A stretch of 31,277 nucleotides of DNA, from contig MU647069.1 of assembly GCA_026770585.1 (NCBI GenBank), positions 145,306 to 176,582 on the forward strand, read 5' to 3'. Below are positions 11,990 through 31,100 of the stretch, piece after piece; within the stretch, counting starts at the first letter, position 1; each line of letters begins with the position of its first letter. The notes beneath the pieces are model-generated. The model was not told where the DNA came from. It did not search any database and saw nothing but the letters and a program-made list of their open reading frames with translations. A program made the position numbers and the translations under genes. Source of the DNA: Baffinella frigidus (Eukaryota > Cryptophyceae > Cryptomonadales > Baffinellaceae).

Positions 11990-12342
11990 AACCTGTGACA
12001 GAATGCCCTATTCGGTCTTGCTAGAAGTGAGGACCGATGAGTGTGACGGGGTTCCCAACACGGGGTGCAGATGCACAGGAACGAGGCGGACACGAGGCGG
12101 GTGACCTCACGGGGCGGAGGCGGTCGCGGATCTCTAGATCACGGGGGGATTGACGAGGCAGTGAGACTGCGGACAGTAGAGCGGGGCGGCGGGTTGTTCG
12201 ATTTGCGGGATCCACACGCTCGCGGACCTCGAGATGCCTCGGGCGCGTTGCCTGAACCTGTGACAGAATCAAGCTATGTGGGCTTGCTAGAAGGAAGGGC
12301 CCATCAAGTTGAATGGCTTCCTAAGATGGGGTGCAGATGCAA
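11990..12342. repeat. Direct repeat pair inside the MYND intron
   Basis: AACCTGTGACAGAAT...CTTGCTAGAAG...GGGTGCAGATGCA occurs at 11990-12076 and 12255-12342, one copy on each side of the left inverted arm. The duplication reaches to the exon's donor side. Confidence 0.8.
12081..12226 (+). repeat. 146-bp inverted arm, left
   Basis: By eye it is the reverse complement of 13257-13402 with two mismatches (GGGGGG against GAAGGG). It lies in the intron downstream of the large MYND exon, which is read on the minus strand. Confidence 0.95.
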
Positions 12343-12347
12343 CAGAC

Positions 12348-13212
12348 CTGGTGAAGCTTCGCAAGGTAGTAGAGGCTGAGCACCTCCGCGCTGAACACTT
12401 CCGAGCGCCCCGTCCTTTCCGACTGCGTCTTGGCTGCCTCTCGATAGCGCAGCACCAGCGGCTCCAGCTCGTCCAACCCGTCTGTCCGGAAGAGCGCACC
12501 GATCAACGCGTTTAGAACATTCAATTCCAGAAGCTCTTCGTGTTCCTCAACGAGCGGGACCGCAGCCAGCGCGTTTCGCAGCAGCTCCACCCCCTCCTCG
12601 TGGCGCCCCTCCTCCATCGCCAGACCCCCGAGTCCCTTACAAGCTTCGCACTCCACTGAGAAGAAGCCGTGCGCTGCGCCGACGTCGCGAGCCCTGGTGT
12701 AGGCCCGCACGGCCTCCTCTCTCCTCCCGAGAAGAAGGAGCTTGTCTGCGATGCCGCACAAGCTCCCGCCCTGGTCCCGGAAGCGCTGCATCTTGCCAAG
12801 GAGCTCGATGCGCCGTTCCCCCAGTCCAATGCAGGAGAGTGCGTGGTCTGTGCTGGGCGTTGAGTTCCATCCTAGATGGTGCGCATCGTGGAACTTCACG
12901 GTGGAAGGCGGCAAGGATGTTAGCGCAGTTGGCATCTGGCTGCCCCTCCATCAGCTCCTCCATGCGCCCCTCCCACTTGAGCACCCCCCGCCAATTCGCA
13001 GCGTTGTGTGCCACTCTCACTCTCTCACAGACGTCGTGCAGAGGCACCGGCGGTGCGCACGTCTTCTTGTGAACCTTCCACCCCTTGGTCTGGCACTCAG
13101 CCCCGCAGTAGGAGGCTTGCTTGCAGCGCGAGCAGAGCTTGAGGGCCGCACCGCGCTTGCCGCACTGGGAGCAGGTGTCCTTTACCGCCACCGTCTTGAG
13201 CGCAGCCTCCAT
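12348..13212 (-). pseudogene. MYND zinc-finger protein, large exon with frameshift
   Basis: From the ATG at 13212 the minus strand encodes about 15 residues and then a complete MYND finger: CSQC, LCSRC, SYCGAEC, and HKKTC, giving the C-x2-C, C-x2-C, YC-x3-C, H-x3-C pattern. MYND fingers bind proline-rich peptides in protein partners. After a linker (residues about 45-100) comes a helical-repeat-like region of about 180 residues (LLLLGRREEAVRAYTRARDV, GLGGLAMEEGRHEEGVELL) with TPR-like spacing. At 12888-12906 TTCCAC is duplicated around CGTGAAG, a net 13-bp insertion; the frame downstream is open only if those 13 bases are ignored. Codons upstream of 13212 are also open (to about 13250), so an earlier exon may exist. 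It ends at donor CACCAG|GTCTGT. It is either a recent pseudogene or a sequencing or assembly error. Confidence 0.75.
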
Positions 13213-13256
13213 GTCCGCGCCTGCCCCAGCCACATGAAGGGCGAGCTCTCTCTTGA

Positions 13257-13402
13257 TCCGCGAGCGTGTGGATCCCGCAAATCGAACAACCCGCCGCCCC
13301 GCTCTACTGTCCGCAGTCTCACTGCCTCGTCAATCCCTTCGTGATCTAGAGATCCGCGACCGCCTCCGCCCCGTGAGGTCACCCGCCTCGTGTCCGCCTC
13401 GT
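13257..13402 (-). repeat. 146-bp inverted arm, right
   Basis: Partner of 12081-12226. It begins within about 45 bp upstream of the MYND ATG, where an intron acceptor would be expected. Confidence 0.95.
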
Positions 13403-14139
13403 GTGCGCCTCGTCACCAGGGTCGATGTGGAGCAAGTCGGTGATTTGATTTATGCGAAAACCCTCCAGGAGCGCCTCAAATCGAGACGAATGGCGCCCTG
13501 AAACTGACTGGGAAAATAATGGCTCCACGACACATCGATTTGCTTCACTTCGAGAGTTACGCCTCTTTTCGTATTCGGCTTGAGCCTCGGTGCAGACAGG
13601 AGGCGCCTAGCGAAGGCTCTCTCTTCGAGCAGATTCCGTGAACGGATCTCTCTCCGCAACATCTTGCCCCCGACTCTTCTCGCATCATGGCCGGTCTGTG
13701 TCCATCCGGAGCCCGAATCCCGAACATTTCTAGCAAACCCTCAGCTCCCCCCCCGTGGAAGATCGTGGAAGATCCTGGCAGCTGACGTGGCTGACGTGGG
13801 TAGGCGAGGCGGGGGGTTGTCCCGCGCAGCAGAGCCTTGCCCACCACTGATTCTCCCAGGACCGATTCGCGAACCCGCAGTCTCCTAATTCCCTAACACC
13901 ATCACCCATCGTGACGACCCAGCCCTGCGCAATGGAGTTTTTCGCCCGTTAGGGTGGTCGGGATTTGTACCAGCGGAACCCAGCCGCCGTTTCCCGCACC
14001 GTACAAACCGTACACACCGCACAAACCGCCCGAATTTGGTGGACACGAACCGATCTCAGTACTCGACTTCCCAGGGATGGCTGCATAATGATAACCCACG
14101 TCTCCTTGCCAATTCGTGAAGGACGGCGTTGTCCGAGCC
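13403..14139. other. Gene-free stretch, nothing recognised
   Basis: Several open frames of 65-100 codons overlap on both strands, but none has recognisable motifs or is linked by splice sites. Earlier exons of the MYND gene could lie here. Confidence 0.4.
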
Positions 14140-14405
14140 GCGTGTGCGAAACCCCGGTACTCTTTGACGGATCGCCTCTCATCCTCGTACCGCTCGGTAC
14201 GGGAAATGGAGCGGATCCTTCAAGTATTACCGGTTCGGGATTTCAATTGGATAGGTGTTCAATTGACCAAGTGCGAAGGACCGGGCGGTCCCAAATCCCG
14301 GTACTATCTGAAGGATCGGCCTCAATCCCCGTGCAAATTAAATGTGGGAGCGAAGGACGGAATCCCGGGTACTGTTTCAAGGACCGGCTCCAATCCCCGC
14401 ACCAA
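14140..14405. repeat. Dispersed unit CCCCGGTACT...AAGGATCGGCTCCAATCCCC
   Basis: Roughly 45-bp units at 14144, 14290 and 14360 (and one inverted near 14205-14240) share TGTGCGAAACCCCGG, GGTACTxTxTxxAAGGATCGG and CTCCAATCCCCG. More copies are at about 15065, 15258, 15300 and 15645, all upstream of the first defined DGAT2 exon. Confidence 0.65.
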
Positions 14406-14434
14406 GTGGTTTAGGGTTCACCCTCTACCCTTTA

Positions 14435-14626
14435 CCACCAGCCCTCACGGGGGGACCAAATTGATGATTTCATCTTTGTGTGCAAATCACGTTTAAAACT
14501 CCCAAAGCCCTGAGAATGGGAGTTTTAAAGGAATTCTTTTTTGTCAGCACCTCGAATTCGACGGACTGGCAAGGTTAGATGGCTCAAAGGTTTTCCATGA
14601 TTTGGTCTCACCGTGAGGGTTGGTGG
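14435..14626. mobile_element. CCACCAACCCTCACGG family element, copy 2
   Basis: The ends are CCACCAGCCCTCACGGGG and CCGTGAGGGTTGGTGG, flanked by TA on both sides (14433-14434 and 14627-14628). The interior has an AAAACTCCCA/TGGGAGTTTT hairpin shared with 30887-31092. Confidence 0.85.
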
Positions 14627-14662
14627 TAGGTACCCTAAGTCTTAAGCCCTAAACCCTAAAAA

Positions 14663-14896
14663 GGCGCGAAGGACGCAGGGGTGCCACTCGAGAATGCTGA
14701 AGGATCCTTTTTACACGTGGGGTTGTAAACATTTGTACCAGGATAGGGCATTCCAACCTCGCGCCTGGTATAGTTTTTACTAGCGTGACCAATTTTCAAC
14801 GAAACTTACTACACGAATGCCCACTTGTAAAAACAAACGGTTTTAGATAGACCCCTCTAGCATTCTCGTGTGGTGCCCGGGACCTCGGGGGTGTCC
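14663..14896 (+). repeat. 5'-partial copy of DGAT2 exon 1, split by a MITE
   Basis: GGCGCGAAGGACGCAGGGGTG (14663-14683) continues at 14876 as CCCGGGACCTCGGGGGTGTC. Joined, it matches the start of the intact exon at 15878 (GTGCGAAGGATGAGGAGGTG, CCCGGGACGTCGGCGGTGGC). Confidence 0.75.
14684..14873. mobile_element. MITE, CCACTCGAGAATGC family, copy 2
   Basis: The ends are CCACTCGAGAATGCTGA and TAGCATTCTCGTGTGG, flanked by TG on both sides (14682-14683 and 14874-14875). It is inserted in a partial copy of DGAT2 exon 1. Confidence 0.9.
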
Positions 14897-14911
14897 AACC
14901 AACGGAATTTT

Positions 14912-15050
14912 ATCTCGGAAGATAACTGGATCAGTTCCTTTTCAATAGGAGGTTGAACAGGAGAAATTAGTCAGGGCATAGTAAATTTAATTAGGCCTCC
15001 TAATTAAATGAAAACGCTCATCAGGGAACTGATTCAGTTCTCTTTCGAGA
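14912..15050. mobile_element. TCTCGGAAGATAACTG family element, copy 1
   Basis: Inverted ends TCTCGGAAGATAACTGGATC and GATTCAGTTCTCTTTCGAGA. The interior CATAGTAAATTTAATTAGGC recurs at 24137-24247, and a left-end fragment is at about 20232. Confidence 0.8.
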
Positions 15051-15101
15051 GGAAATTGGAGCAGCGTGTGCGAAACCCCGGAGTTACTGTTTCAACGATC
15101 T

Positions 15102-15254
15102 CTAGCTCTGTCCCAGTTCAATTTGGGCTCGCCATTATTTCGCCCCCCCCCGAAATTTCACAGGTAAATTTCATGGGGGGGTCAAAATCTACCTGTGAAA
15201 TTTGGGGGGGGGGCGAAATAATGGCGAGCCAAAATCCAAATGGGACAGAGCTAG
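15102..15254. repeat. Long hairpin with poly-C/poly-G inner arms
   Basis: CTAGCTCTGTCCCA... pairs with ...TGGGACAGAGCTAG. Arms of about 70 bp include CTCGCCATTATTTCGCCCCC and AATTTCACAGGTA, with few mismatches and a short central loop. Confidence 0.9.
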
Positions 15255-15411
15255 GATCTGCTCCGTATTATTTGAAGGATCGGCTCCAGTTCCCGTAATG
15301 CGATTTCAAGGACCGACTTCAATCCCGGAACCAATCGAATAGGAGCGATTTGGTGTTTTTGGATGTGGGGTTGAGGAGCCGACGTACCTGATGCAAAAGT
15401 GTACACGTTTC

Positions 15412-15561
15412 ATCCGGGGACATGTTTAATTTAAAAGAAAACTGATCCCTATTTGTTCATAGGAGTTGGAAGAAGGTTAATTAGGGCCTTAATTAAATTC
15501 AATTAGGGCCAGAATCCGGTTTGATAGGCCATTTTCTTCTAAATTAAACATGTTCCCGGAT
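15412..15561. mobile_element. Palindromic MITE, ATCCGGGGACATG family, copy 2
   Basis: 150 bp, opposite orientation to 3679-3827, with inverted ends ATCCGGGGACATGTTTAATT and its near complement. Interior GTTCATAGGAGTTGGAAGA is shared. Confidence 0.85.
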
Positions 15562-15573
15562 GGCATTGGCTAG

Positions 15574-15623
15574 GTGCGGAGGACGGGGAGGTGCCCGGGA
15601 CCTCAGAGATGCCCATCAACACG
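15574..15623 (+). repeat. 5'-partial copy of DGAT2 exon 1
   Basis: After ggctag: GTGCGGAGGACGGGGAGGTG, then CCCGGGACCTCAGAGATGCC. It translates in phase to AEDGEVPGTSEMPI, matching the intact exon's AKDEEVPGTSAVAI, then diverges before any donor. Confidence 0.75.
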
Positions 15624-15877
15624 AAATTTGCGCTCAGATCTCGTGTGCGAAATCCCCGCACTAATCCAAGGATCGGCGCCAATCCCCGTACACATCGACT
15701 CTGCTTCTTCTCTTCTTTAGTACTTTGAAACCTCACGATGGGTGGTCCAAATTGAATAGGTGCGAACCAATTGAATAGGAGCGATTTGGTGTTCTTGGAT
15801 GCGAGGTTCAGGAGGATGTGGGGTTTAGGAGAGGTTTAGGAGGAAGTACCTGATGCAAGAGTGTACACATTGAATAG

Positions 15878-15956
15878 GTGCGAAGGATGAGGAGGTGCCC
15901 GGGACGTCGGCGGTGGCCATCAAGACGCCCAGCGGCGCGAAAGCTGTCGTGTACAA
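15878..15956 (+). CDS. DGAT2: DGAT2 exon 1 (first defined exon)
   Basis: 79 nt between gaatag| and AA|gtgagc. It encodes AKDEEVPGTSAVAIKTPSGA then KAVVYK, a hydrophilic N-terminal segment ahead of the first membrane helix. The GT dinucleotide at its start completes a codon from an earlier exon that I cannot place. It starts with AG|GT. Confidence 0.75.
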
Positions 15957-18191
15957 GTGAGCAACCCTAAACCCTAATCCCTAAACCACGCTCGAGCGTC
16001 AGCCCCGAACACCTTTCCCTGAATTATGAACCCTACACCTTACACCTAACACCCTACAATTTTACTCCTTACACCCTACACTTTTCGTGTGGCACCCTGA
16101 ACCCTAAACTCTGAAGCCTGAGACCTCGGCGGTGGCTATCAAGACGCCCAGCGGCGCGAAAGCTGTCGTCTACAAGTGAGCGTCAACCCTAATCCCCAAA
16201 CCTTAACCCCCAAACCTTGCACCATCCACTCCAAATCCCAAACCCTGAACAAGTGAGCAATCTTACACCCGCAACACACCCTGCACACCTGAAACCCCAC
16301 ACCCGCAACAAAACCTATACCTACAAGTAAGCAACCCTGAACCGGAAGTGGCTATCAAACCGCTCAGCGGCGTGCACGCTGTCGTGTACAAGTGAGCAAC
16401 CCTAAACCCTAATCCCGGAACCATTCTCACTATTGCACGTTGCAAATGAGCAATTGCACGTTGCAAATGAGCCAACCCTAATCCCCAAACCCTAAACCCT
16501 AAAACTTACACCATACACCCCACATCCTAAACCCTGAACCCTGAACCCTAAACCTTAAACCCTGAACCCTATACATTACACGCCCTAAACCCTAAACCCC
16601 AAACCCCAAACCCTAAACCCTAAACCCTAAACCCCTGAAACCTGAACCCTTACCCCAAACCCGGCCCCAACGTCACTGCCACACGTTGCAAGAAAATTAC
16701 CGTGTGCCAACTTCGCCTTTTTCTCTTACGTCATGTTTCTCTTAAGTCACCTTTCTCTCTCTCTCTCTCGAGCAGGACGAACCTCTACAATGGGTCTCCG
16801 GTGACAAAGGCGTTCTGGGTACAAAGCAGGGTCTGTGTTTCTGATACAAACCTGGGCCAACTCCGGCAACCCAACTCTAGACAAATTTCCCGTGTGACCT
16901 AGCGTGGTCTCTTTCGAGCAGGACGCACCTAAAAACCTACATCCAAAGTCCTCTCTTTCTGAATTACGCCACCTTTCTCTCTCTCTCTCGAGCAGGACGC
17001 ACCTGTACGACGGGTCGCCACTCAAAAAGGCGTTCTGGGTACAACTCAGGGTCAAAAAATCGTTGTAAACCGGTTGACCATTCACGTTTTGCGTGTTTCT
17101 GATACCAATCTGGGCCTGCAGGACGCACCTCTACGACGGGTCGCCACTCACGAAGGCGTTCTGGGCCGGCCTGATGCTGAACAACGTCATCTTTCTCCAA
17201 GGCTTCGCGCTACTCGGCCTCACGTATAAACCCTAAACCCTAAACCCTAAACCCTAAACCCTAAGCACTTCGCTCTGCTAGGCCTCGTGTACCACCCTAA
17301 ACCCGAAACCCGAAACCCGAAACCCGAAACCATAAACCATAAACCATAAATCCGACACCCTAAACCATAAACCATAAACCCTAAGCCCTAAACCCTAAAC
17401 CCTAAACCCAAAACCCAAAACCCAAAACCCAAAACCCTGAACCCAAAACCCTAAACCTCGATCCCTCAACCCCAACCCCCAACCCCTAAACCGGCTTCTC
17501 GGACTCGCGTAACCTGGCTGGAGGTTACTCGAGCCCTCCCAAGTGGAATGTGTTCACGTGTTCAAGGTTGTCGGACCACACAGCGGACTTCGAAGGGACT
17601 TCTGAATAAACCTTAAGAGATAAGACCTACGACCCTACGGTAGGCAACCCGTAGGGACATAGGGGGGTTCCTTCGGATAAAGTAACGGAATCTCGGCCCG
17701 AAATGGGCCGAAAAGCCCTTTGTAGCCCGCTGTGTGGCTGTGCTGACATTTGACTTCCGGGGTTGACGTTTGGCACTTCACAGTCGACTTTCCACTTTCC
17801 CAGGCGGCGTTTTGAAATTCCGGGGTTGAACTTTGTCCGGGATCCACTCGAGAATGCTAGAGAGGCCTATTTAAATCCGAACACACAAGATCTTGACTAC
17901 AAAAATGCTCAAATTTATACCAGGATAAGATAAAAGTAACCTCGCGCCTGGTACAATTTTTACCGGGCACGAGGTTACTTTTCCTTATCCTGGTACACAT
18001 ATTTACAACCTTTCTTTTTACGTATATATAGGCCCCTGTAGCGTTCTCGTGTGGATTGACTTTTGTGGGTGGGGTTGACTTTTGGCAGGTGGGCGGCGCT
18101 CCCGCGGTACGTCGCTCTTCCGTTCATCCTGGGCTACTTTCTCAACATGGTCACGTCCAAGGCGCAGTACACCGGTACTCTCTCTCTCTCG

Positions 18192-18237
<46 letters not shown>

Positions 18238-18263
18238 CTCTCTTGTTCTCGCTCTCGCTCTCG

Positions 18264-18308
<45 letters not shown>

Positions 18309-18742
18309 TACTTTCTCAACATGGTCACGTCCAAGGCGCAGTACACCGGTACGGACGAGACTAGTTATTACTATTAATATGTAATTATTACTATAAATAT
18401 GTAATTGTTACTATAAATATGTAATTATCACTATTAATATGGTACCATAAGCAGACTGTCACGTCCGGATAAGACTAATTATTATCAGTATCGCGCCCGG
18501 GCGAGACTAGTTGTTACTAATAGTTAGTTATGACTACGTTCATCCTGGGCTAGTTCCGCAACATGGTCACGTCCACGGCGCAGTGCACCGGTATGGCCGA
18601 GACTAGTTATTTTTACTAATTTGGTACCGAGACTAGTTTTATTACTAATTTGGTACCAGACGCAGACTGTCACGTCCAGCGTGTAGTACTCCGGTACTCT
18701 CTCTCTCTCTCGCTCTCTCGCTCTCTCTCTCTCTCGCGCGCG

Positions 18743-18778
<36 letters not shown>

Positions 18779-19034
18779 GAAGCTGTGTATCATGCTGGTA
18801 TCGACAACATGCACCCGGGAGTGCACGTTTCGACAAGACAGTCACCCGGATATAAGACAGTCATGCCAGAGGGCGCCAATTCCCGGCAACCCCCGGTATT
18901 AGCGTTTAGGGTTTACCAGTCAGGGTAGGGTTCAGGGTGTAGGGATTACCGTGAGGGACGCAACGTTGATGTGTCCCCCCGGGGGCACGTAGCTACGTGA
19001 GAGAGAGAGCGCGAGATAGCGAGAGAGCGCGCGC

Positions 19035-19078
<44 letters not shown>

Positions 19079-19112
19079 GAGAGCGAGCGAGAGAGAGCTA
19101 GAGCGCGCGCGC

Positions 19113-19153
<41 letters not shown>

Positions 19154-22100
19154 TGAGCGCGCGCGCGAGAGAGAGAAAGAGAGCGTGCTCCTTCTGACCG
19201 TCGGGGGACCGCCCGTGCCAGAGAATATGCATTCAAAAGAGCTAACTGGTTAGGGTTCAAGGTTGAGAGTTGAGGGTTGAGGGTTTAGGGTTTAGGGAGG
19301 AGGACCCGGCGAAACCTAATCGTGGTGGTACCCTGCGTGGTCACCGAACCCTATTCCCTGAAACTTGCTGGGTTTGGCCCAAATTTCTCAAGTAAACCTT
19401 GCTGGGTTTGGCCCATTGGTGGTACTCCGTGGCAGGAAGGAAGCATTCAAACAGCTACGTCTAGGGTTTTGGGTTTGGGGTACAGCCTCAGCCGTTCAAG
19501 GTTTAGGTTTTTATGAGGCGGTTCTGACCACCGGGGGGGCGTGCGTGGCAGGTCCTTATTAAAGCCGATAGTCCTCGTGAGGATCCTCGTAGTCATGACC
19601 AACTATTAGTAATGACCCTTATGGTGCTTAGAGCGTTTGCGGTAATTGTTGTCCGTTTTGGACGTGCGGTTTTCCGGTTTTCCGGTTTTCATTACAACAT
19701 TTTTAAAAACCGTAAAACCGGAAAACCGTACGTCCAAAACGGACAACAATTACCGCAAACGCTCTATTAAAGCCATTTTTCTCTTAATCCTTTTATTCCT
19801 TTTAATTAATTAATTTCTGAGAAGAGAAGCACTCGAAGAGCTACCTGGTGTGGGTTCAAGGTTTGCGGTGTAGGGTCTAGGGAGGACCCTGTACTGATCG
19901 CTGCTGGCTATACCTCTTATTATAATATACCTATTATTGTATATACCTATTATTATACATTGTTCTATACCTATTATTATATTTTGTCCCGGGGTGGAAT
20001 CTAATCGTGGTGGGATTGTGCGTGGCAGGAGAGAACCACTCGAAAAGCTACGCCGCGTCCAAGGAATACGCCTCCATCCTGGAATACTTTGGGTGCGCCC
20101 CTTCTCGTCACCACATTTGATCCCTTCGTAGCCCGCGATGTGGTTACGAGCGGGGCCGCTCCCGGGGGGTCCAGAAGCACCGAGAGGTGGACCCAAGTAT
20201 TCCAGGATGGAGCGGGGGCCCCGCCCTCATCTCGGAAGATAACTGAACCAGTAAAACTATTTTAGGCAATGCACATAAAGGAATACGCCTTCATCCTGGA
20301 GTAGTTTGGGTGCGCCCCCGCTCCTCACCACATTTAATTGACCGATTTTTTTACCGGTCTTTCGGTCGAAATCGCCTTCAAAGCCCACCGTGTGGACCGG
20401 GCAGGTTTTGCGTGCACCAGAGCACGCTCTGACGCCACCACCCGCCCTCATAGTGTGAGCAACTCCTCTTTGTCGCGACCCCTGATTTTCACCACAGGTC
20501 GCCGGATTCGGGCGACCTGTGGTACAATTGAAGGGGATTGAAAAAAGGTGATTTGCGGGCACGACGCGGGCTGGTGGCACACAGAGGGCTCCCAAGGGAT
20601 TTTCGGCCCGATTTTGATCAAGAATCCGTTAGGATATCCGTGGGAACAACCTTGGTCCCTTTGTGCATGGCCTACTGCAGGGTCCTATGGGGTATCCACT
20701 TATGGATTTCTCAAGCACCTCAGGATCTGATTACACCGCTAGGACCCAAACCTGTCCCGAGGTCTGGGGAAGATAGAACTCGGGCGCTGCTTAGTGGAGG
20801 ACTAGATCACGGCGGGTTTGTGGTTTTGCGTCTATCGGTGTGTCCAGCAAGTCCCGAGGTGGGCCTATCCCATGCCTGTTCTGACGCGGGCCTATCTATC
20901 CCGAGGCGGGCCTGCCTCGTTCCTGTCCTCAGGCGGGCCTCACACGGAACACGTCTAAACTTAACCCGAACCCCCAAACCCTGAGCCCTAAACCCGAAAC
21001 CCGAAACCCGAAACCCGAAACCCGAAACCCTAAACCCTAAACCCTAAAAACTCTAAACCCTAAACCCTAAACCCTAAATCCTAAACCTTAAATCCTAAAC
21101 CCTAAACTCTAACCCCTAAAAAACCTAAACCCTGAACTCTAAACCCTAAACCATGAACTCTAATCCCTAAATTTTAACTTTCGATAGGATGCGGATTGCG
21201 CTGCCAGACTCGCTCAACCTCGACGAGAAAGAGCAGTGCGCACCCCCCCAAAAAAAACCGAAACCCGAGACTCGAAACCTGAAACACGAAACCCGAAACC
21301 GAAAGACTCGCTCAACCTCGACGAGAAAGAGCAGTGCGCACCCCCCCCCCCCAACCCGAAACCTGAAACCCAGAAAGAACAGTGCGCATCCCCCAACCCG
21401 AGACCCGAGACTCGAAACCTGAAACCCGAAACCCAAAACCGAAAGACTCTCTCAACCTCGACGAGAAAGAGCAGTGCGCACCCCGCCTAAACCCCAAACC
21501 TCAAACACGAAACACGAAACACGAAACCCGAAATGAAACACGAAACACGAAACACGAAAACCCCAGACCGAAACCCGAAACCGAAAGACTCTCTCAACCT
21601 CGACGAGAAAGAGCAGTGCGCACCCAACCCCCCCCAATCCGAAACTCGAAACCCGAAATCCGAAACCCGAAACCCGAAACCAGAAACCAGAAACCAGAAA
21701 CTGTGGACACTAAACTCTAAACACTAAACCCTAAACCCTTATCCCCAACCCCGCCCCCCCAACCCCCCAACCCTAACTCCTAAACCTGAAACCCGAAACT
21801 CTAAACCCCACACCCCAAATCCCAAACCCTGAATCCCAACCCCCAAACCCCAACCCCTGGAAATCGCATCGGAAAGAAAATCGCACCGGACTCGCGATTC
21901 GCGGTTTTCGACGGCTCCGCGACATGCCAATAGTCCGAATTTCAGAAAGCAAATTTTCATGCCGTGGTACTAAATGAGTGTGCGGTCCCACATGAGACGC
22001 GACTCCTCGTCCTTTCCACGTCCGATTCGTTACTCCGAATTTCGGATCCGGGTACACAATGTAAAACAAGACTTGTATCTGAAATCCCGACGGATGACCG

Positions 22101-25100
22101 TGCGTGGTTCCGCAACTGCTCGTGCATACTAAAGTTGCTCTGGCAAAGAAGTTCTGCAAAGGTGCACGAAGGGGTGTTAGAGCCACGAACCAAGGTGTTT
22201 TACCACCAGGTACAAAGGGGTGTTGGCGCCACGAACATTCATTAGCCGGAATTTCAGACTGGGTTCGGTGAGCCTACTGCGTCCAGCCTACTGGAAGCAG
22301 TTGCTCACCCCCGGGCGTGTTTGCAGATATCTGTTCGGGTTCCACCCCCACGCGGTGCATGCCATCGGGTCGTTCGTGACTACCTGGCAGCATCCGGCCA
22401 ACCCCCTCTTCAGGAAGTTCCCCGGGACTGTTGACAAGGTGTGCGCCAGCCCTAAACCCAGAACCCAGAACCCTAAACTCGAGACCCTACCCCTCAGCCC
22501 TAAACTTTAAACTCTCAACTCTAAACTAAACGCTACACTCAAAATCAGCTTCGAACCCCAGCGCTCCAAAGTGAAGTGTTTTGGACCCTGAACCCTAAAC
22601 CCTGAACCCTGACTCCCGACCCCTGACTCCCGACCCCTAACCCTTAAACCCTCGTGCTCTTCTCAAACCATGGACCGCCCTTTCCAGAGCAACTTTGCAG
22701 AACCCCTTTGCCCGAGCAACTTTGCTTTGCCACATCAACTTACTTTGTCCGTGCAACTTTAGTATGCCAGAGCAACTTTACCGAACCTCTTTGTTTGTGG
22801 CGCTAACCTTTTTGTTCGTGGTGCTAAAACACCTCTGTTCGTGGTGCTAAAACCTCTTTGTTTGTGGTGATAAAACCTCTTTGTTCGTGGCGCCAACACC
22901 CCTTTGTGCCTGGTGCTAAAAAAACTTTGTTCGTGGCGCTAACACCCCTTCGTGCACCTTTGCAGAACCCCTTTGCCAGAGCAACTTTAGTATGCAAGAG
23001 CGACTTTACTGAACCTCTTTGTTCGTGGAGCTAACGCCCCTTCGTGCGTGGAACGCCTTTTCAGATGAAGTGCGGAGCCGCCTCGGTCCTCTGGTGATGC
23101 CCCTCCACACGGCGGACTACGAACCTTTCATCAAAAGTCAATTTGCCCTGATGCAATTAACTTTAGATATTTTCTTGTGCAGTTTGGTCACGTAATCCAG
23201 GCGCAACGAAACCCTCCAAGCCCACCGTGTGGCTTGCACGCAGACTAAGGACTTTCTTAACACCCGTTTTGCAGAGAGGGAAAGTACCTTTTTGACACGC
23301 CTGTTGCAGATAAAGAAAAAACTCTTGATGCCCCTTTTGCGGAGAGAGAAAGAAAGCACTTTATTGACACCCTTTGCGGAGAAAGAAAGGACTTTATTCT
23401 CGTGCTTGGTCAGGGACACTTGAGGCTCGACAGGTCTTGCAGTTTGAGCGTGGAAACAAGTTCAGAGACAACAGCACTGAAAAAAAAAATCTGGTACACA
23501 GTGTACAAATGAATGCTTGAACATTTACAGCACCATTTACATTGCACCACGAAAACTTTACAAAGCGTTGCAAAGTGCAACGATGCGCCAATTATCTCGT
23601 TTCTTTGTCGCTGAAGAGCTGCCCCTGAAACAGCCCTCGGGGGGTTGCAGGTATGTTCCGTGCGTGGGACGTCCCACGTTAGATACACTGCCTATAGCGA
23701 AGAAGTATGCCCTACCACCGGTAGGAAGCATTTTCAGGGTTTTCTAGAGACATTCGACCCCGTTCGGATGACTAAACTTAAGATCTGGATGCCTAACCAG
23801 CTGCTGTGGAGCGGTTGAATTGTGTTGCACGAAACCCTTTCAACGCTTTGCAATCTGCTGCGACCGTTGAAGTCGTCACTTGCCTGAAGAGTGACAGAAG
23901 AGCAAGTGACAGAAGGGCGGGTGACAGAAGGGCAAGTGACGACCCTCGGGGATAGTAAGCGAGACGGTGCTCTGGAGCGGGTGGATCGATGCTTCAAACC
24001 TGATGCAAAACTCCCCCTTGAAATTATTTACCGCGAACACTTGACACGTGTCGCTTTGCAGCTAACGAGAGAGTTGTGATGGGGGAGTGTAGGTACATTC
24101 CGTGGGTTCGCGAGACGCTCCTCTGGAGCGGGTTGATCTCATTTCGCAAAATAACTGAATCAGTTCCTTTTGGATAGGAGGTCGAATAGGAGAAATTAGC
24201 CAGGGCATAGTAAATTGAATTAGGCCTCCTAATTAAATGAAAACGCTAAACCCTCGGGGATTGTAGGTACGTTCCGTGGGTGCGCGAGACGCTTCTCTGG
24301 AGCGGGTGGATCGATGCCGGAAGGAAGACTCTGGATAAGCACTTGTCAAAGGGCGCGGTGAGCCATCTTCCTCTCCTTATTCTTGTTGGGTGAAGGGGCT
24401 TTCAGGGTCGCCAAAGAAGGAAAGGTTCGAGCACTTGTCAAGGGGCGCGGTGAGACATCTTCTTCTTGTCCTTTCGCTTGAGAGATATTCTTCCCGTTGT
24501 TCTTGTTCTTGTTCTTTTTCTGTCTTCTTCTCCCTCTTCTTCCTTTGTTCTTTTTCTTTTTCTTCGGCGATCTGCAAAGCCCCTTGACAAACACTTGTCG
24601 CAGGGCGCGGTGAAACCCCGAACCCTGAACCCTAACCACCGGCCCTGGGAGGTTGCTCAAATTGTGCTCTGACCACTATTTGAGCCACTTCCAAGGGCTA
24701 GTGGAAGCTCGATAAGATACCTTCTTCTCCTCTGTCTCCTCTTTCCTCTTTCGTGGTGACGCTAGAAAACACCACCACACCAAACACTGCACCCTGAAAC
24801 GTCTGGATCGGGTGGATAGACGCGGGTCGCAAGACCCAAGACCCAAGACCCTCGATGAGCACTTGCCAAAGGGTGAAACAGCCCCGCCGGCAGGCTCGTG
24901 AACGGACGCCGAAGCCAGACGGTCGGTCGTGACTGCCTTGCGTGTTCCACTCCCGTGGCATTTGCCTGTGGGCCCAGGACCACCCTACCTTTGCAAGACC
25001 CAAGACCCTCGATGAGCACTTGCCAAAGGGTTTTCGAAAAGTGGGAAAAGGTGAACTTGAGAACCCTGAAAACGTTTCTCGGCAGAGCATCGGAATTGTC

Positions 25101-28100
25101 ATCGGCGGAGAAGCAGAGCCTCTTGCGACCGAGAACGGCAAGGACAAGGTACCTAAACCCTAAACTCTACACCGTAAACCCTAAACCCTAAACCCTACAC
25201 CCTTAACCCTAAACCCTACACCCTAAACCCTACACCCTACACCCTACACCCTTAACCCTAAAGCCTCGACCCTCAACCCTCGACCCTCAACCCTCGACCC
25301 TCGACCCTTAACCCTCAACCCTCAACCCCAAACCCCAAATCCCAACCTTCGAACCCCAAACCCCAAACCCCGAACTCTAAACCCTTAACCTATACCCCCG
25401 AACGGTCGCGCTAGAACCACTCATATCGCGGCAATTTCTCCCTCCAAGATCATACATCTCAGCGACCCACACTGCGTCATGTAGGTGGTCCTCGGCGGAC
25501 GCGAGGAACGAATCCAAAACCCTAAACCCTGAACCCGAAACCCTAACCCATAAACCCTAAACCCTGAACCCTGAACCCGAAACCCGAAACCCTAAACCCT
25601 GAACACTTAGGCCTAAACCCTAAATCCTAAACCCCAAACCTTAACCCTGAAACGCTGCACCCTAAACCCTAAACCCTCACCCCTATGCCCTTAACCAGGT
25701 AGTGCTTGGCGGAAGGAAGGGCTTGACCCGCCGCGCGATGCACGGCTTACACCAAATACACTCCATTTCGTAGCGCGTCCATCTAAAGGATTTCCGGTAC
25801 AAATCCTGGAATGTTATCCTCCAACCGTACGAAATGGCTCCAACGCGAAGCCAGATGTGAGATGGAATCCTGCAGGTGGTGCTTGGGGGGCGCAAGAGCG
25901 AAGTCGGGAGGGAGGGAGCGAGGGAGGCACCACACTCTGAGTGATCAACCCTCGCGATTTCTTCTTCTGCTTCTTCTTTATTACTCTCGATACAGGTCCT
26001 AAATGAGGCCCTTGAGCCTTGAGTTGAGAGATACAAAAGTCTATGGGCCTTACGAAACGGGCCCGCGATTGCAGGTCGTGCTTGGGGGGCGCAAGGGCTT
26101 CATTGGATTCCCGACACAAATCCTGGAATTGTATCCCCTCAAAGTACGACATGGCTCCAACGCCAAATGCCAAATCTGAGGTGGAATGCTGCAGGTGGTA
26201 CTCGGCGGACGGAAGGGCTTGATCCGCCTTGCGATGCGGCACGGCGCGGAAGATGCCTGCATCAGTATTCCATGTATGCTGTGGTCGGCAGCGCTTTGAC
26301 GCCCATGATAGCAAAGCAACCACCACACCTAACATGCCACACACGCTAGCATGGCATTAATGTGATACTGGGTGCAGGTGGTGCTTGGGGGGCGCAAGGG
26401 CTTCATCCGCCTTGCGATGCGGTTTCGCCCTATACCCTTAACCCTCAACCCTTAACCCTCAACTCCAAACCCTAAACCCCAAACCCTAAACCCTAAACCC
26501 TAAACCCTAAACCCTGAACCCTAAACCCTAAACCCTAAACCCTAAACCCCAAACCCTGCACTCTAAACCCTAAACCCTAAACCCAAAACTCTAAACCCTA
26601 AACCCTAAACACCAACCCCTGCAGGCACGGCGCACACATCGTCCCGACCTACACCTTCCACCTGCAGGTTTCGGGTTGCGGGTTTCGGGTTTCGGGTGTA
26701 GGACTGACCAGGCGTGGGCTTCGGGAGGGGCGTGCCCCAGCGGCCGAACGTGACCAGCGGCCGAACGGAGCGCGAGGCGCAGCCCCTTGAGGAAATGGTA
26801 GTGGAACGAGAATGTGTCATTCCTAAGCCCTAAAACCTCAACCCTAAACCCTGAACACCAACCCCTGCAGGCACGGCGCACACATCGTCCCGACCTACAC
26901 CTTCCACCTGAATGATACCTTCTCCTTCCACTACCACTTCCTCAAGGGGCCCCGCCTCGCGCTTCAGGTTCTCAATCTCCCGGGTTTCGGATTTCGGGTT
27001 GCGGGTTTCGGGTTTTATGGTTTGGCGTTTAGGGCGTGTTAGGGCTCAGGGTTTAGGGCCTGTTAGGGCGCATACCTTGGGGTGTAGAGCGTAGGGTTTC
27101 CGGGCGTTAGCGTGGCGCACACAGCTCTCCAGGTGACCCCTGTGTTCAACGATTAGGTGTTAGGCGTTAAGGGTTAAGGGTTGAGGGTAAGGGGTAGGGG
27201 GTTGATGATAAGGGGTAAGGATCTACAACCTTCAGGATGTAAATCACCAAATCCTAAAGGTTGTAAACCACCAATGCCGATTCCGAAGCACATGTGCTGC
27301 TTTGTGTTAGGTGGCGCGGTTCCTGTGTTAGGAGCACAAGACGCGGTTCTTGTGTTAGGTGCCGCGGTTCCTGATTGGATCACTGTGACCCAATCATTTC
27401 GGGGTTAGGGTTTAGGGTTCAAGGTTTCGGGCTTCAGGTTTCGAGTTTCGGGTTTCACATGTACAGTTTCAGGTTTCGGGTGTAGGAGACTCACCCGGCG
27501 TGGGCTTCGGGAGGTTAGTGTTTAGGGTTTGGGGCGCGTCTGGCACGCGTCTGGCACGGCCTGCAGAGAGTGACGCAGGTGTGGCAAGCACGTTGTTCCT
27601 AGGGTTTAGGGGGCAGGGTCAGTAACGTTCCTAGGGTTTAGGGGTTACTGGCGCGGGTGGCGCGGCCTGCAGAGAATGACGCAGGTGTGCATTCCAATCA
27701 CGTTCGGAGCCCCCCACCCCTCCCCCCGCCACGCAGCAAGCACGGTGTTCCTAGGGTTTAGGGTTGACTGACACGTGTGCGGGGTGCAGAGAATGACGCA
27801 GGTGTGCATCCCGATCACGTTCGGCCGCTGGGGCACGCCCCTCCCGAAGCCCACGCCTGGTACTCCCGAAACCCGAAATCTTCATCTGAAACCTCAAGAA
27901 ACTCGAAACCCGAAACCTACATCATCTGCGCCGCAACCCCGCACCATACGACCCTCCCGAAGCCCACGCCGGGTGAGTCCTACACCCGAAACCCGAAACC
28001 CGAAACCTTGGGGTGTGTCACGGATTTAGCGATTGGTGTTTAGGGTTTGGGGTTGCGGCGCAGAGGGCGTCCCGAAGCCCACGCCGGGTCCCTACGCCCG

Positions 28101-31100
28101 AAACCCGAAACCCGAAACCCGAAACCTGCATCCTATGCGCCGCAACCCCAAACCCTAAACACTAACCTCCCGAAGCCCACGCCGGGTGAATCTCCTACAC
28201 CCGAACCCCGAAACTGTACATGTCAAACCCGAAACTCGAAACCTGAAGCCCGAAACCGTGAACCCTAAACCCTAACCCCGATATGCGATCACGTTTGGCC
28301 GCTGGGGGCCACCCCTAACGCAGAACACGCCGGGTACTCCCTACACCCAAGGAACCCCGAAGAGATCCGAAGAAACCCGAAAAAAAATCGAAGCCCTGAA
28401 CCCGAAGGAACCTGAAACCCGAAACCCGAAGCCAGGAACCCGAAACCCGAAGAAAACCGAAACCCGAAACCCGAAACCTCGATCGCGTTCGGGCGGTGGG
28501 GGACGCCCCTCCCGAAGCCTTCGCGTAGTTCTCCCGAAGCCCTGAATCCTCATCTGAAACCCGAACAACCCCGAAACACGAAACCCGAAGAAACCCGAAA
28601 CCTGCATCATTTGCGCCGCCACCCCACACCAATCCCTAAACCCTCAACCCTAAATCTCAAATCCCTAAACCCTGAACCCTAAACCCTAATTCCGAAATCT
28701 CAAATCACTAAAAACCCTAAACCCTAAACCCTTAACCCTAAACCCTAAACCCTAAACCCTAACCTCTAACCCCTAAACGCAGGGCTGTCCGTCGCGATCG
28801 GAGAGCCGATCCGCGTCCCACCCCAGGAGCTTCCTTAGCACCCCTGGTTTGTACCAGTCACGTCCAGGATGAGTGTGCTGTTCGGGTCCGGATCTCCGGA
28901 CTCGGCTTTCAAACGAACCCCCGGGTCGCTCGATAGCGGCTAAACCCTAACCCCTAACCCCATAACGCAGGGCTGCTGGTCGCGATCGGAGAGCCGATCC
29001 GCGTCCCGCCAAAGGTTACGAGCCCCCCTCCCCGAAACCATGGCCTAAATTCAGGGTAGTTGAGCCTATGGTATTGACTGCGGTAGGCCATAGCCAATAC
29101 CGTAGGATACCGTAACTACCCCGAATACCGGCCGTTACCCTATGAACTCGCCATCTGCAGCCCCTTAACAACTTCTTCTTCTTCTTCTTCTTCTTTATTA
29201 CTCTCGATACAGGTCCTAAATGAGGCCCTTGAGCCTTGAGTCGAGTGATACAAAAGTCTATGAGCCTTAAGACACGGGCCCGCCTCAGAGACAAGAGCTA
29301 CAATGGCTCCAGCGTCGCGGGTGAGTGTTCTGCATTAAAAGCCCCGTACGCTTGTTGACTGATCCGGGCCGTTTTTAAATAAGTAAAACGCACAAAAAAA
29401 AATGCGTTCAAAAACAAATGCGTACAAAAAAAACGATTCCACGGCTTCCGTGGAAGCCAACTGACCACTTAGCAGCCACCACGGTCTTCACGGATGCAGT
29501 CCATCTAAACGATGTGTACTAGAATATTATCCATTCACATCGGATTTCAACTGCATTTCCCCCGGATATCCGGGGGGGAAGGAACTCGGCCGCTGCTAAG
29601 TGGCCGGGAAGGGTTGGTATCGTTGCCAGCGTGTGAGTAACGTGTGTTCGCTCTGTGCGCAGCGCTTGGATCCAAGCGGGCTGCACCACCCGACACCCTA
29701 AACCCAAGCCATGAGCCCTAAGGCGCTTGGATCCCTGGGGGGGGGAGATAGTAGGTAGACAGGTATGTTGTTGGCCCCTACTTACAGGCCTGAGTAGGGG
29801 CGTACTACGCTACTCGCCACTCAAGGGAGGGATTTCGCAAAGCACGAGTTTCAACCGGGTATGATCGATCCCTCCAGCTGAGTGAAGTCTTCTCTGTCTC
29901 TCGCTCGCTCTCTCCCACTTAGCAGCCACCGAGGTCTTCACGGATGCAGTGCATCTAAACTATTTGTACTAGAATCTTATCCACTGCTATGGATTCCAAC
30001 CGGAATTTCCCCCGAGAATCCGGGGGGAAATATCTTCGGTCGCTGCTAAGTGGTGTGGAGGACCGATGCCACCAGTCGAGTGAAGTGTTTTCTCTCTTGT
30101 ATGCAGCCCTCGGATCCAAGTGCATCCCAAAGCCCTAAGCCCTAAGCCGGAAGCCCTAAGCCCTGAACCCTCACAGGCCCTAGCTGCCAAACCATAAGCC
30201 CAAAACCCAAAACCCAAAACTTAAAACCCAAAGCCCAAAGCCCCAAACCCCAAGCCCCAAGCCCCAAACCCCAAACCCCAAACCCGCAGCCCGCGGATCC
30301 GAGCGCAAAGCCCGACGAGGCGATCGTCGATCAGATCCACCAAAAGTTGACGCCCCACCCTCCTCAGATCCACCAAAAGTTGACCCCCCCCCCTCCTCAG
30401 ATCCACCAAAAGTTGACTCCCCCCTCTGCTCAGATCCACCAAAAGTTGACGCCCTTCAAAATTCACACCCACAAACTTTGATACATCCTAGTCAATTCAG
30501 CTACTAACCATTATCGTAAAGGTCTCTCTCTCGTCAACCAAGGTGTCTCCTCCTAATTTCATCTCGGTACATGCCAGAATCTGTCCTGATAAAAAGGCGT
30601 AAGATAGCATCATTTGATGCCTAAAGTAGCATAAACACCCTTACCTTCCGCGTGGGGAGACTAAGATAGCGGGACAGGTTGGGTCTTGTTCCGGAATTAA
30701 ATTGATACAGGTCTCTCACACATGTCAAGAACCATCCCCCTCGCTAGTCAGCACAGAAGGTGCATCTCTCTCACTGATCAGTACAGGGTTCCCTCACTGA
30801 TGAGTACAGGTCTCTTTCGCCGATCGATTGAGGTCTCCTACACTCGTCAAACAATGTCTCTCTCACTGATCAGTACATGTTTCTCTCCAACCAACCCTCA
30901 CGGGCGGACCAAATTGACGATTTTCGACCTTTTGTGCAAAGCACTTTTAAAACTCCCAAAACCTGACCTTTGTGGGAGAATGTGGCTTTTAACCTTATAT
31001 TGTTTTTGTCAGCGGGGTCACTTCCAACCCCGCTGCAAGGGGAAAATGGCTCCAAGAATTCGTTGATTTGGTCTCATCGTGAGGGTTGGTGGTCACAATC

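Follow-up and report, generated by a model that had tools for sequence, protein, structure and literature searches.

In the RdRp gene of potato, a direct tandem duplication that runs across the boundary of an intron and an exon has been described, its splice signals deriving from the parental border (excerpt of PMC4974935), and the Rogers model, as outlined in excerpts of PMC4974935 and PMC2891723, derives new introns from tandem duplication of an exon segment bearing AGGT. For vertebrates, the part of PMC2671141 cited here describes duplication of proximal DNA during repair, in which exons and splice sites are copied as well and filler is present. In the DGAT2 gene of the cryptophyte alga Baffinella frigidus, the introns contain many decayed partial copies of the gene's own exons, and direct copies holding one exon edge lie upstream of the intact exon if they carry its beginning and downstream if they carry its end. 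The gene is on the plus strand of a stretch of 31,277 nucleotides (the window, C730:145306-176582; contig MU647069.1 of assembly GCA_026770585.1), and the genome searched comprises 382.5 Mb in 1364 contigs. A light-harvesting fragment of this genome is most similar to ACPI and CAC chains, which are proteins of cryptophytes.

Exon-edge copies in the DGAT2 gene

All 15 exons proposed in an earlier note on this DNA could be placed, with GT-AG borders at 14 of 14 introns and a single open frame, and the protein contains a DAGAT domain (E = 8e-43). The transcript-derived protein P0001 from MMETSP (373 aa) is listed with 100% identity to the 344-aa DGAT2 query, the last residue of which differs by eye. 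This comparison sets the end of E15 at 31176 and implies an additional 7-nt first coding exon, E0, that accounts for P0001 residues 1-3. Since the gene model agrees with P0001, at least one transcript uses the splice sites called true here. The exons are short (median 64 nt), and the gene extends beyond E15 past the end of the window.

Copies were searched for with blastn, using each exon with 10 nt on either side as query against the window at E ≤ 0.05, and a copy was called one-ended when it reaches within 3 nt of exactly one exon edge. The search gave 40 direct and four inverted copies (Table 1). All 33 one-ended direct copies obey the same polarity, with 14 of 14 beginnings upstream and 19 of 19 ends downstream of their exon (Fisher's test, p = 1e-9, a value overstated because copies of one exon are not independent). 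The other direct copies are two that hold both ends of E10, both upstream of it, and five that touch neither exon end, all with midpoints on the expected half, one of them barely (0.511 of the exon). A further E14 end copy, in an array of 33-bp units and ending at 30378, was left out by blastn and follows the rule as well. At least one direct copy was found for 11 of the 15 exons (E1-5, 8, 10-14); for E6, E7, E9 and E15 the same search of the window found none. The earlier note had counted at least ten such exons, which agrees with this result. It had also placed direct beginning copies (of eight exons) only upstream and direct end copies only downstream; both sides stand, but it had missed the beginning copy of E11 (26615-26664), and the end copy that it names for E2 does not appear at E ≤ 0.05. 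Wrong-side copies, far from being as frequent as the expected ones, are absent among the 33.

The polarity is stable across thresholds, with 22 of 22 one-ended copies obeying it at E ≤ 1e-6 and 30 of 30 at 1e-3, and at E ≤ 1 a single opposite copy appears among the 36 lying within 2.5 kb of their exon (three farther matches were set aside). Given the low-complexity introns and the short matches, alignment noise or an assembly artefact might be suspected, but we give this practically no credence: the exons compared with the reversed window (31 kb) produced no direct match at E ≤ 1e-3 (four at 0.05 and 14 at 1), the direct copies diverge by 0-21% from their exons, and the identical pattern is present on other contigs. 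The copies are also confined to the gene, as all 32 of the DGAT2 matches listed from the 382 Mb lie inside DGAT2 itself.

Table 1. Exons of DGAT2 and copies of exon parts, in window positions; percentages are blastn identity to the parent exon
Feature	Position	Strand	Basis or identity
E0, first coding exon, 7 nt (start codon, GCC, G)	13687-13693	+	fits P0001 residues 1-3
E1 internal copy (17-42), upstream	14872-14897	+	88%
E1 beginning copy	15564-15623	+	82%
E1	15878-15956	+	gene model, P0001
E1 end copy, GT present	16116-16181	+	92%
E1 end copy, GT present	16348-16401	+	87%
E2 beginning copy, AG present	16772-16819	+	83%
E2 beginning copy, AG present	16992-17039	+	94%
E2	17122-17223	+	gene model, P0001
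E3	18089-18174	+	gene model, P0001
E3 end copy	18307-18352	+	100%
E3 end copy	18537-18593	+	91%
E3 end copy	18669-18703	+	86%
E4 beginning copy	19428-19459	+	81%
E4 beginning copy	19820-19844	+	88%
E4	20029-20092	+	gene model, P0001
E4 inverted end copy, downstream	20183-20212	-	87%
E4 end copy	20278-20318	+	93%
E5	21188-21235	+	gene model, P0001
E5 end copy	21304-21343	+	100%
E5 end copy	21372-21391	+	90%
E5 end copy	21444-21483	+	98%
E5 end copy	21586-21625	+	98%
E6, no copies found	22327-22438	+	gene model, P0001; blastn for copies
E7, no copies found	23065-23093	+	gene model, P0001; blastn for copies
E8 beginning copy	23641-23666	+	85%
E8 internal copy (18-51), upstream	23959-23992	+	94%
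E8 beginning copy	24083-24138	+	91%
E8	24267-24357	+	gene model, P0001
E8 end copy	24430-24459	+	93%
E8 end copy	24577-24613	+	81%
E8 internal copy (30-63), downstream	24802-24835	+	79%
E8 internal copy (59-87), downstream	24845-24873	+	86%
E8 internal copy (59-87), downstream	25002-25030	+	86%
E9, no copies found	25086-25148	+	gene model, P0001; blastn for copies
E10 copy continuing into degenerate E11 start, without GT	25694-25752	+	76%
E10 beginning copy	25871-25899	+	97%
E10 beginning copy	26070-26103	+	97%
E10 copy fused to first 9 nt of E11, without intron or GT	26193-26247	+	89%
E10	26378-26421	+	gene model, P0001
E11 beginning copy with 10 nt of flank	26615-26664	+	100%
E11 and E12 parts, adjoining inverted copies	26708-26822	-	blastn
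E11	26871-26967	+	gene model, P0001
E12 inverted end copy, upstream	27493-27514	-	95%
E12 beginning copy	27562-27583	+	95%
E12 beginning copy	27668-27707	+	95%
E12	27790-27859	+	gene model, P0001
E12 end copy	27948-27974	+	93%
E12 end copy	28070-28089	+	95%
E12 end copy	28166-28187	+	95%
E12 end copy	28286-28341	+	82%
E12 end copy	28480-28537	+	84%
E13 beginning copy	28776-28822	+	91%
E13	28971-29014	+	gene model, P0001
E14 beginning copy	30103-30124	+	86%
E14	30290-30345	+	gene model, P0001
E14 end copy, in 33-bp array, absent from blastn list	30364-30384	+	tandem array
E14 end copy	30397-30421	+	96%
E14 end copy	30430-30454	+	100%
E15, no copies found	31131-31176	+	gene model, P0001

Elsewhere in the window, an inverted repeat of ~140 bp (12089-12230 and 13270-13400, by eye) flanks neighboring minus-strand reading frames. 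The minus-strand open frame at 12637-13329 carries a cysteine pattern, which we take to resemble a MYND zinc finger.

Copies at exons of other genes

The other-gene set was built from genomic matches to HSP70, protein kinase and kinesin, each with 1.5 kb of flank (77 loci of 170 matches), and its copies were sorted by side and by the half of the matched core that they hold. There are 66 direct matches, that is, 36 upstream with the left half, 26 downstream with the right half, three upstream with the right half and one near-whole, in addition to three inverted matches. All three opposite rows, the near-whole row and one of the downstream-right rows are supplied by a single locus, L078, a decayed, stop-containing copy of the exon of L071, located 260 bp downstream of it. 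Without L078, which was excluded post hoc after the table had been inspected, 61 of 61 partial matches from 18 exons are polar (with two pieces of a single L060 copy counted separately; Fisher's test, p = 1e-17, overstated for the reason given above). A TCP1 set of eight cores, fetched later and treated by the identical procedure, gave three of three.

The genome-wide scoring by side and exon end that the earlier note had suggested was carried out on a sample of exon cores, and polarity was found again. In this DNA search of the whole genome with 27 short exon cores, partly overlapping the other-gene set and with L078 excluded beforehand, 34 of 35 local copies on 15 exons are polar; the single exception covers positions 15-105 of 123 at 75% identity and has its midpoint slightly left of center. 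All 35 lie within 841 bp of their parent exon. Of the 12 remaining matches, located on other contigs or in different genes, 11 fall within matches to HSP70 or kinesin.

The control for polarity consisted of random segments outside exons, taken from the same loci. Of 413 segments tried, 115 have direct copies, with 202 copies following the rule, 158 opposing it and 37 whole; unlike the exons, these segments are nearly unpolarised. A segment over the outer edge of a duplicated pair follows the rule and one over the inner junction breaks it, so a ratio of about 1:1 is expected for random segments, whereas exons are expected at 1:0 because a working exon cannot contain the duplication junction. 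From these sequence comparisons, we read the polarity as the mark that selection for an intact exon would leave when acting on a general local duplication process.

The polarity also bears on repair-mediated capture of nearby DNA (synthesis-dependent strand annealing), in which exon pieces would be copied into intron breaks anywhere and in either direction. Such capture is known in vertebrates (excerpt of PMC2671141) and fits the strict locality and the existence of inverted copies. Free placement, which we infer to be the defining feature of this family of events, predicts no polarity, against the 33 of 33, 61 of 61 and 34 of 35 seen. We therefore find it an unlikely explanation and disfavor it for the direct copies, but it may be the source of the inverted ones.

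Some further features were noticed in the fetched loci. Two HSP70 genes (L003/L004, C709:130108-134621) lie on opposite strands with ~0.9 kb between them, and 634 core bases of this locus match inverted at 100%. L081 (C768:8878-9339) has a light-harvesting domain in one open frame, together with a further stretch that we take to be EF-hand-like. The kinase matches at C811:139513 and C546:254053 are in open frames of 46,653 and 13,283 aa, respectively, which are perhaps stop-free repeat arrays.

Shape and origin of the duplications

The best explanation, and in our judgment a likely one, is that introns of this genome grow by repeated local direct duplications of DNA, some of them spanning exon borders, which are kept only where one exon stays intact. 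If an acceptor is duplicated together with the exon beginning behind it, the truncated copy would come to lie upstream of the intact exon; if an exon end is duplicated with its donor, the truncated copy would lie downstream. Duplications that break the exon would be purged by selection, hence the uniform polarity. Break repair would be the most likely source of the duplications, and the transposon-like elements, telomere-like arrays and simple repeats that sit between the copies would have arrived later.

Two exons show border-spanning head-to-tail arrays, E14 with a 33-bp unit in 3.8 copies and E5 with a 140-bp unit in 3.2 copies behind the exon. When the DGAT2 copies are compared ungapped with the true exon, similarity is ~88% just inside the exon and complete at the AG. 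Outside the exon it is 67% at 3-6 nt, 42% at 7-12 and 30% at 13-20 on the acceptor side, and 68%, 60% and 44%, respectively, on the donor side, values that are lowered by indels and stand against a random match of 25%. In a gapped comparison, the flanks are significantly like those of the true exon in 13 of 19 end copies and four of 16 beginning copies (17 of 35 together), and in seven more (three end and four beginning copies) they are alike only to those of a sister copy. At loci L072, L076 and L079, the likeness of the flanks reaches ~60 nt in at least one copy. In 58 sequences taken together, copies are most often spaced ~75-325 bp apart, and the homologous blocks have a median length of 43 bp.

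Several observations weigh against growth by such duplications. Copies that are 94-100% identical to the exon can have unrelated flanks at the splice site (E2 at 16996, E3 at 18348, E10 at 26075). By a measure that is biased short, the ratio of block to spacing has a median of only 0.19 over 315 pairs, with seven of the 315 reaching 0.8, and it is 0.16 in the 34 pairs of at least 95% identity and 0.24 in the 11 pairs of at least 98%. The bias comes from the masking of low-complexity sequence and from the high-identity filter, which selects pieces of longer alignments; in L076, for example, a 66/149 bp pair at 94% sits within a 125/148 alignment at 82%, and an abutting 58-bp pair in L072 was missed by the list. 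In addition, the four inverted DGAT2 copies require a different event, two E10 copies hold both exon ends, and the random-segment control is itself slightly polar (202:158, p = 0.03), perhaps because of other exons within those loci.

The earlier note had put the pattern down to tandem duplication of segments straddling splice sites. The direct, local, border-spanning and polar character of the copies and the arrays at E5 and E14 bear this out, but simple tandem events as the cause of the remaining copies do not follow from block-to-spacing ratios as low as these. Copies that follow one another directly, head to tail, are evident at E5 and E14; at other exons, repeats, transposon-like elements or telomere-like arrays intervene. 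Plain tandem duplication may account for all of the copies or only for some of them.

The separation of the copies could instead result from insertion with a long flanking duplication, in which a staggered break at or near an exon edge would be filled in and joined around filler in one step, so that tens of bp are duplicated around ~100-250 bp of filler (a telomere-like array or a cut-off transposon-like element). Most pairs do have short blocks and larger spacing, the similarity of beginning copies is gone within ~10 nt of the AG, and direct copies lie directly behind an apparently truncated transposon-like element in L012, L015 and L055 (by eye; the L055 pair may or may not be an exon). Breaks with 3' overhangs yield small tandem duplications according to the abstract of PMC8355091. 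This course of events appears possible but doubtful to us, as the 17 of 35 DGAT2 copies sharing intron flanks with the true exon, the ~60 nt shared in L072, L076 and L079, and the arrays of E5 and E14 without other filler speak against it, and filler may equally have arrived later. Because it is one form of direct duplication, its odds overlap with those of the local duplications that we prefer.

The sequence between copies includes dispersed repeats common to other loci, with inverted-end elements among them (by eye). Short repeats of this kind occur at 17576-17737 and other places, in part bounded by inverted ends (by eye; for example CCACACAGCGG), and match up to 13 fetched loci, telomere-like matches aside and with some loci overlapping each other. 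Starts of telomere-like arrays are not enriched at splice sites (one of 15 donors and one of 15 acceptors, vs 10% of random intron 20-mers). Among 40-nt tiles of DGAT2, those with direct copies numbered 25 of 44 for exon beginnings, 26 of 40 for exon ends, 11 of 21 for exon interiors, 443 of 1298 for introns and 196 of 290 for intron of low complexity; these counts and those of the telomere-like arrays placed E0 one base too far right. Given the tile counts, and since conservation of exons keeps their copies detectable longer, we do not claim that duplication targets exon edges over introns.

The telomere-like units show a strand bias of their own, AACCC-type to GGGTT-type units being 241:56 in the DGAT2 introns (13695-31130) and 1337:397 in 57 non-overlapping loci. 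Five or more units are present in 54 loci, of which 41 lean to a C-rich sense strand, 12 are opposite and one is even. A G-rich sense strand would supply many TTTAG acceptors.

The joined copies upstream of E10 are the sole direct DGAT2 copies with both ends of an exon. In the copy at 26193-26247, all of E10 passes without an intron into the first 9 nt of E11; the one at 25694-25752 is a poorer version of it. The missing intron suggests that intron 10 is a recent gain. If E10 and E11 were formerly one exon, both would be ordinary beginning copies. Intron 10 (449 nt) is the shortest DGAT2 intron in the window, and its first 203 nt are 77% telomere-like, which would fit a young intron. The joined copy could possibly come from reverse-transcribed, part-spliced RNA, but later intron gain would explain it as well. 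At the join of the inverted E11 and E12 parts (26708-26822, minus strand) there is neither an intron nor an exon end.

Decoy splice sites and relation to known systems

That the introns are rich in decoy splice sites, as the earlier note had it, is supported here. All 16 copies with an exon beginning, among them the two double-ended copies of E10, have the AG. The GT is present in 19 of 19 end copies with a single end and in neither of those two E10 copies. At least one decoy occurs in 13 of 15 introns, and in each of these the shortest donor-acceptor pair among true and decoy sites is not the true pair. The decoys are no weaker by simple scores, with a mean donor consensus match of 5.05 of 9 (true donors, 5.13) and a pyrimidine content of 0.57 (true, 0.55). 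A stop would follow from the use of every decoy acceptor (16 of 16) and of 15 of 19 decoy donors; the remaining four donors would shift the frame in one case and leave it open in three.

The geometry was considered for the true sites and the copy-derived decoys only. Given the polarity, the interval from a true acceptor to its true donor is free of decoys, and because false acceptors lie before the exon and false donors behind it, no other acceptor-to-donor pair of these sites is as short as the true exon. If the splicing machinery paired sites across exons, it could find the true exon in this way, while pairing across introns by closeness would pick wrong sites. The arrangement thus predicts splicing by exon definition in this unicellular alga, for which pairing across its short exons could suffice. 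A survey that includes the cryptophyte Guillardia theta links short exons between long introns to exon definition (excerpt of PMC6142364). With decoys of this quality, the question of how splice sites are paired becomes testable in a unicellular organism.

The copies could also be functional, that is, decoys used in stepwise or alternative splicing and kept by selection. AG or GT at copied borders is kept in 35 of 35 cases vs 118 of 139 internal ones (p = 0.009, with the lost GT of the two both-end E10 copies left out); once these are counted, the figure is 35 of 37 (p = 0.17). This retention, seen in DGAT2 only and in modest numbers, is a lead for function and not a result. Most decoys would introduce a stop, and the sole known transcript uses the true sites, for which reasons we consider a function of the copies very improbable. 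The same small chance is given to a stepwise removal of long introns, with selected and used decoys, in which inner decoy pairs would be spliced first and the true outer pair last; were it true, introns would be structures that extend themselves from copies of their own exon borders, with the copied sites as internal splicing relays.

Introners insert into many genes as nearly identical elements, each making up a whole intron. The introns described here likewise contain transposon-like elements, but the repeated pieces are the gene's own exon edges and not a dispersed element, and the dispersed repeats occur inside introns, with no case in which a whole intron is shown to be one element. Among the matches listed from open-licence PMC papers, we recognised no account of intron growth in cryptophytes or of polar exon-edge copies. 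The small tandem duplications described for broken ends (PMC8355091) share with our proposal a source of short direct duplications; they differ in that the abstract does not mention introns or exon borders. Proximal capture in vertebrates (PMC2671141) is similar in its locality, where a donor within 5 kb is expected; here it lies at most 841 bp away for the other exons and within the gene for the 32 DGAT2 matches. The cited part of that account contains no polarity, whereas side and end are fixed here (33:0, 61:0 and 34:1).

In the Rogers model, as in our explanation, a tandem duplication is rescued by splicing. The duplicated segment is exon interior in that model (excerpts of PMC4974935 and PMC2891723), which would put part of the following exon next to the donor, and here the unit contains an existing border. 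The order expected from the model, an intron opening with a copy of the following exon's beginning and closing with one of the preceding exon's end, was not found in DGAT2, where copies lie on the side of their own exon; intron 1, for example, has E1 end copies and then E2 beginning copies. The potato RdRp case, as far as the excerpt of PMC4974935 describes it, is similar in that the duplicate holds an exon part with its splice site (AG in 16 of 16 and GT in 19 of 19 here). As for the abutment of units, it is seen here in the E14 and E5 arrays and in one L072 pair, with seven of 315 pairs reaching 0.8 by the biased measure. Unlike that single case with a new intron and inserted exon sequence, the present one comprises dozens of copies across many genes, with the exon left as it was and the existing intron lengthened, which would make it a route of intron lengthening whose record is still legible in the sequence and whose polarity would mark selection against broken exons.

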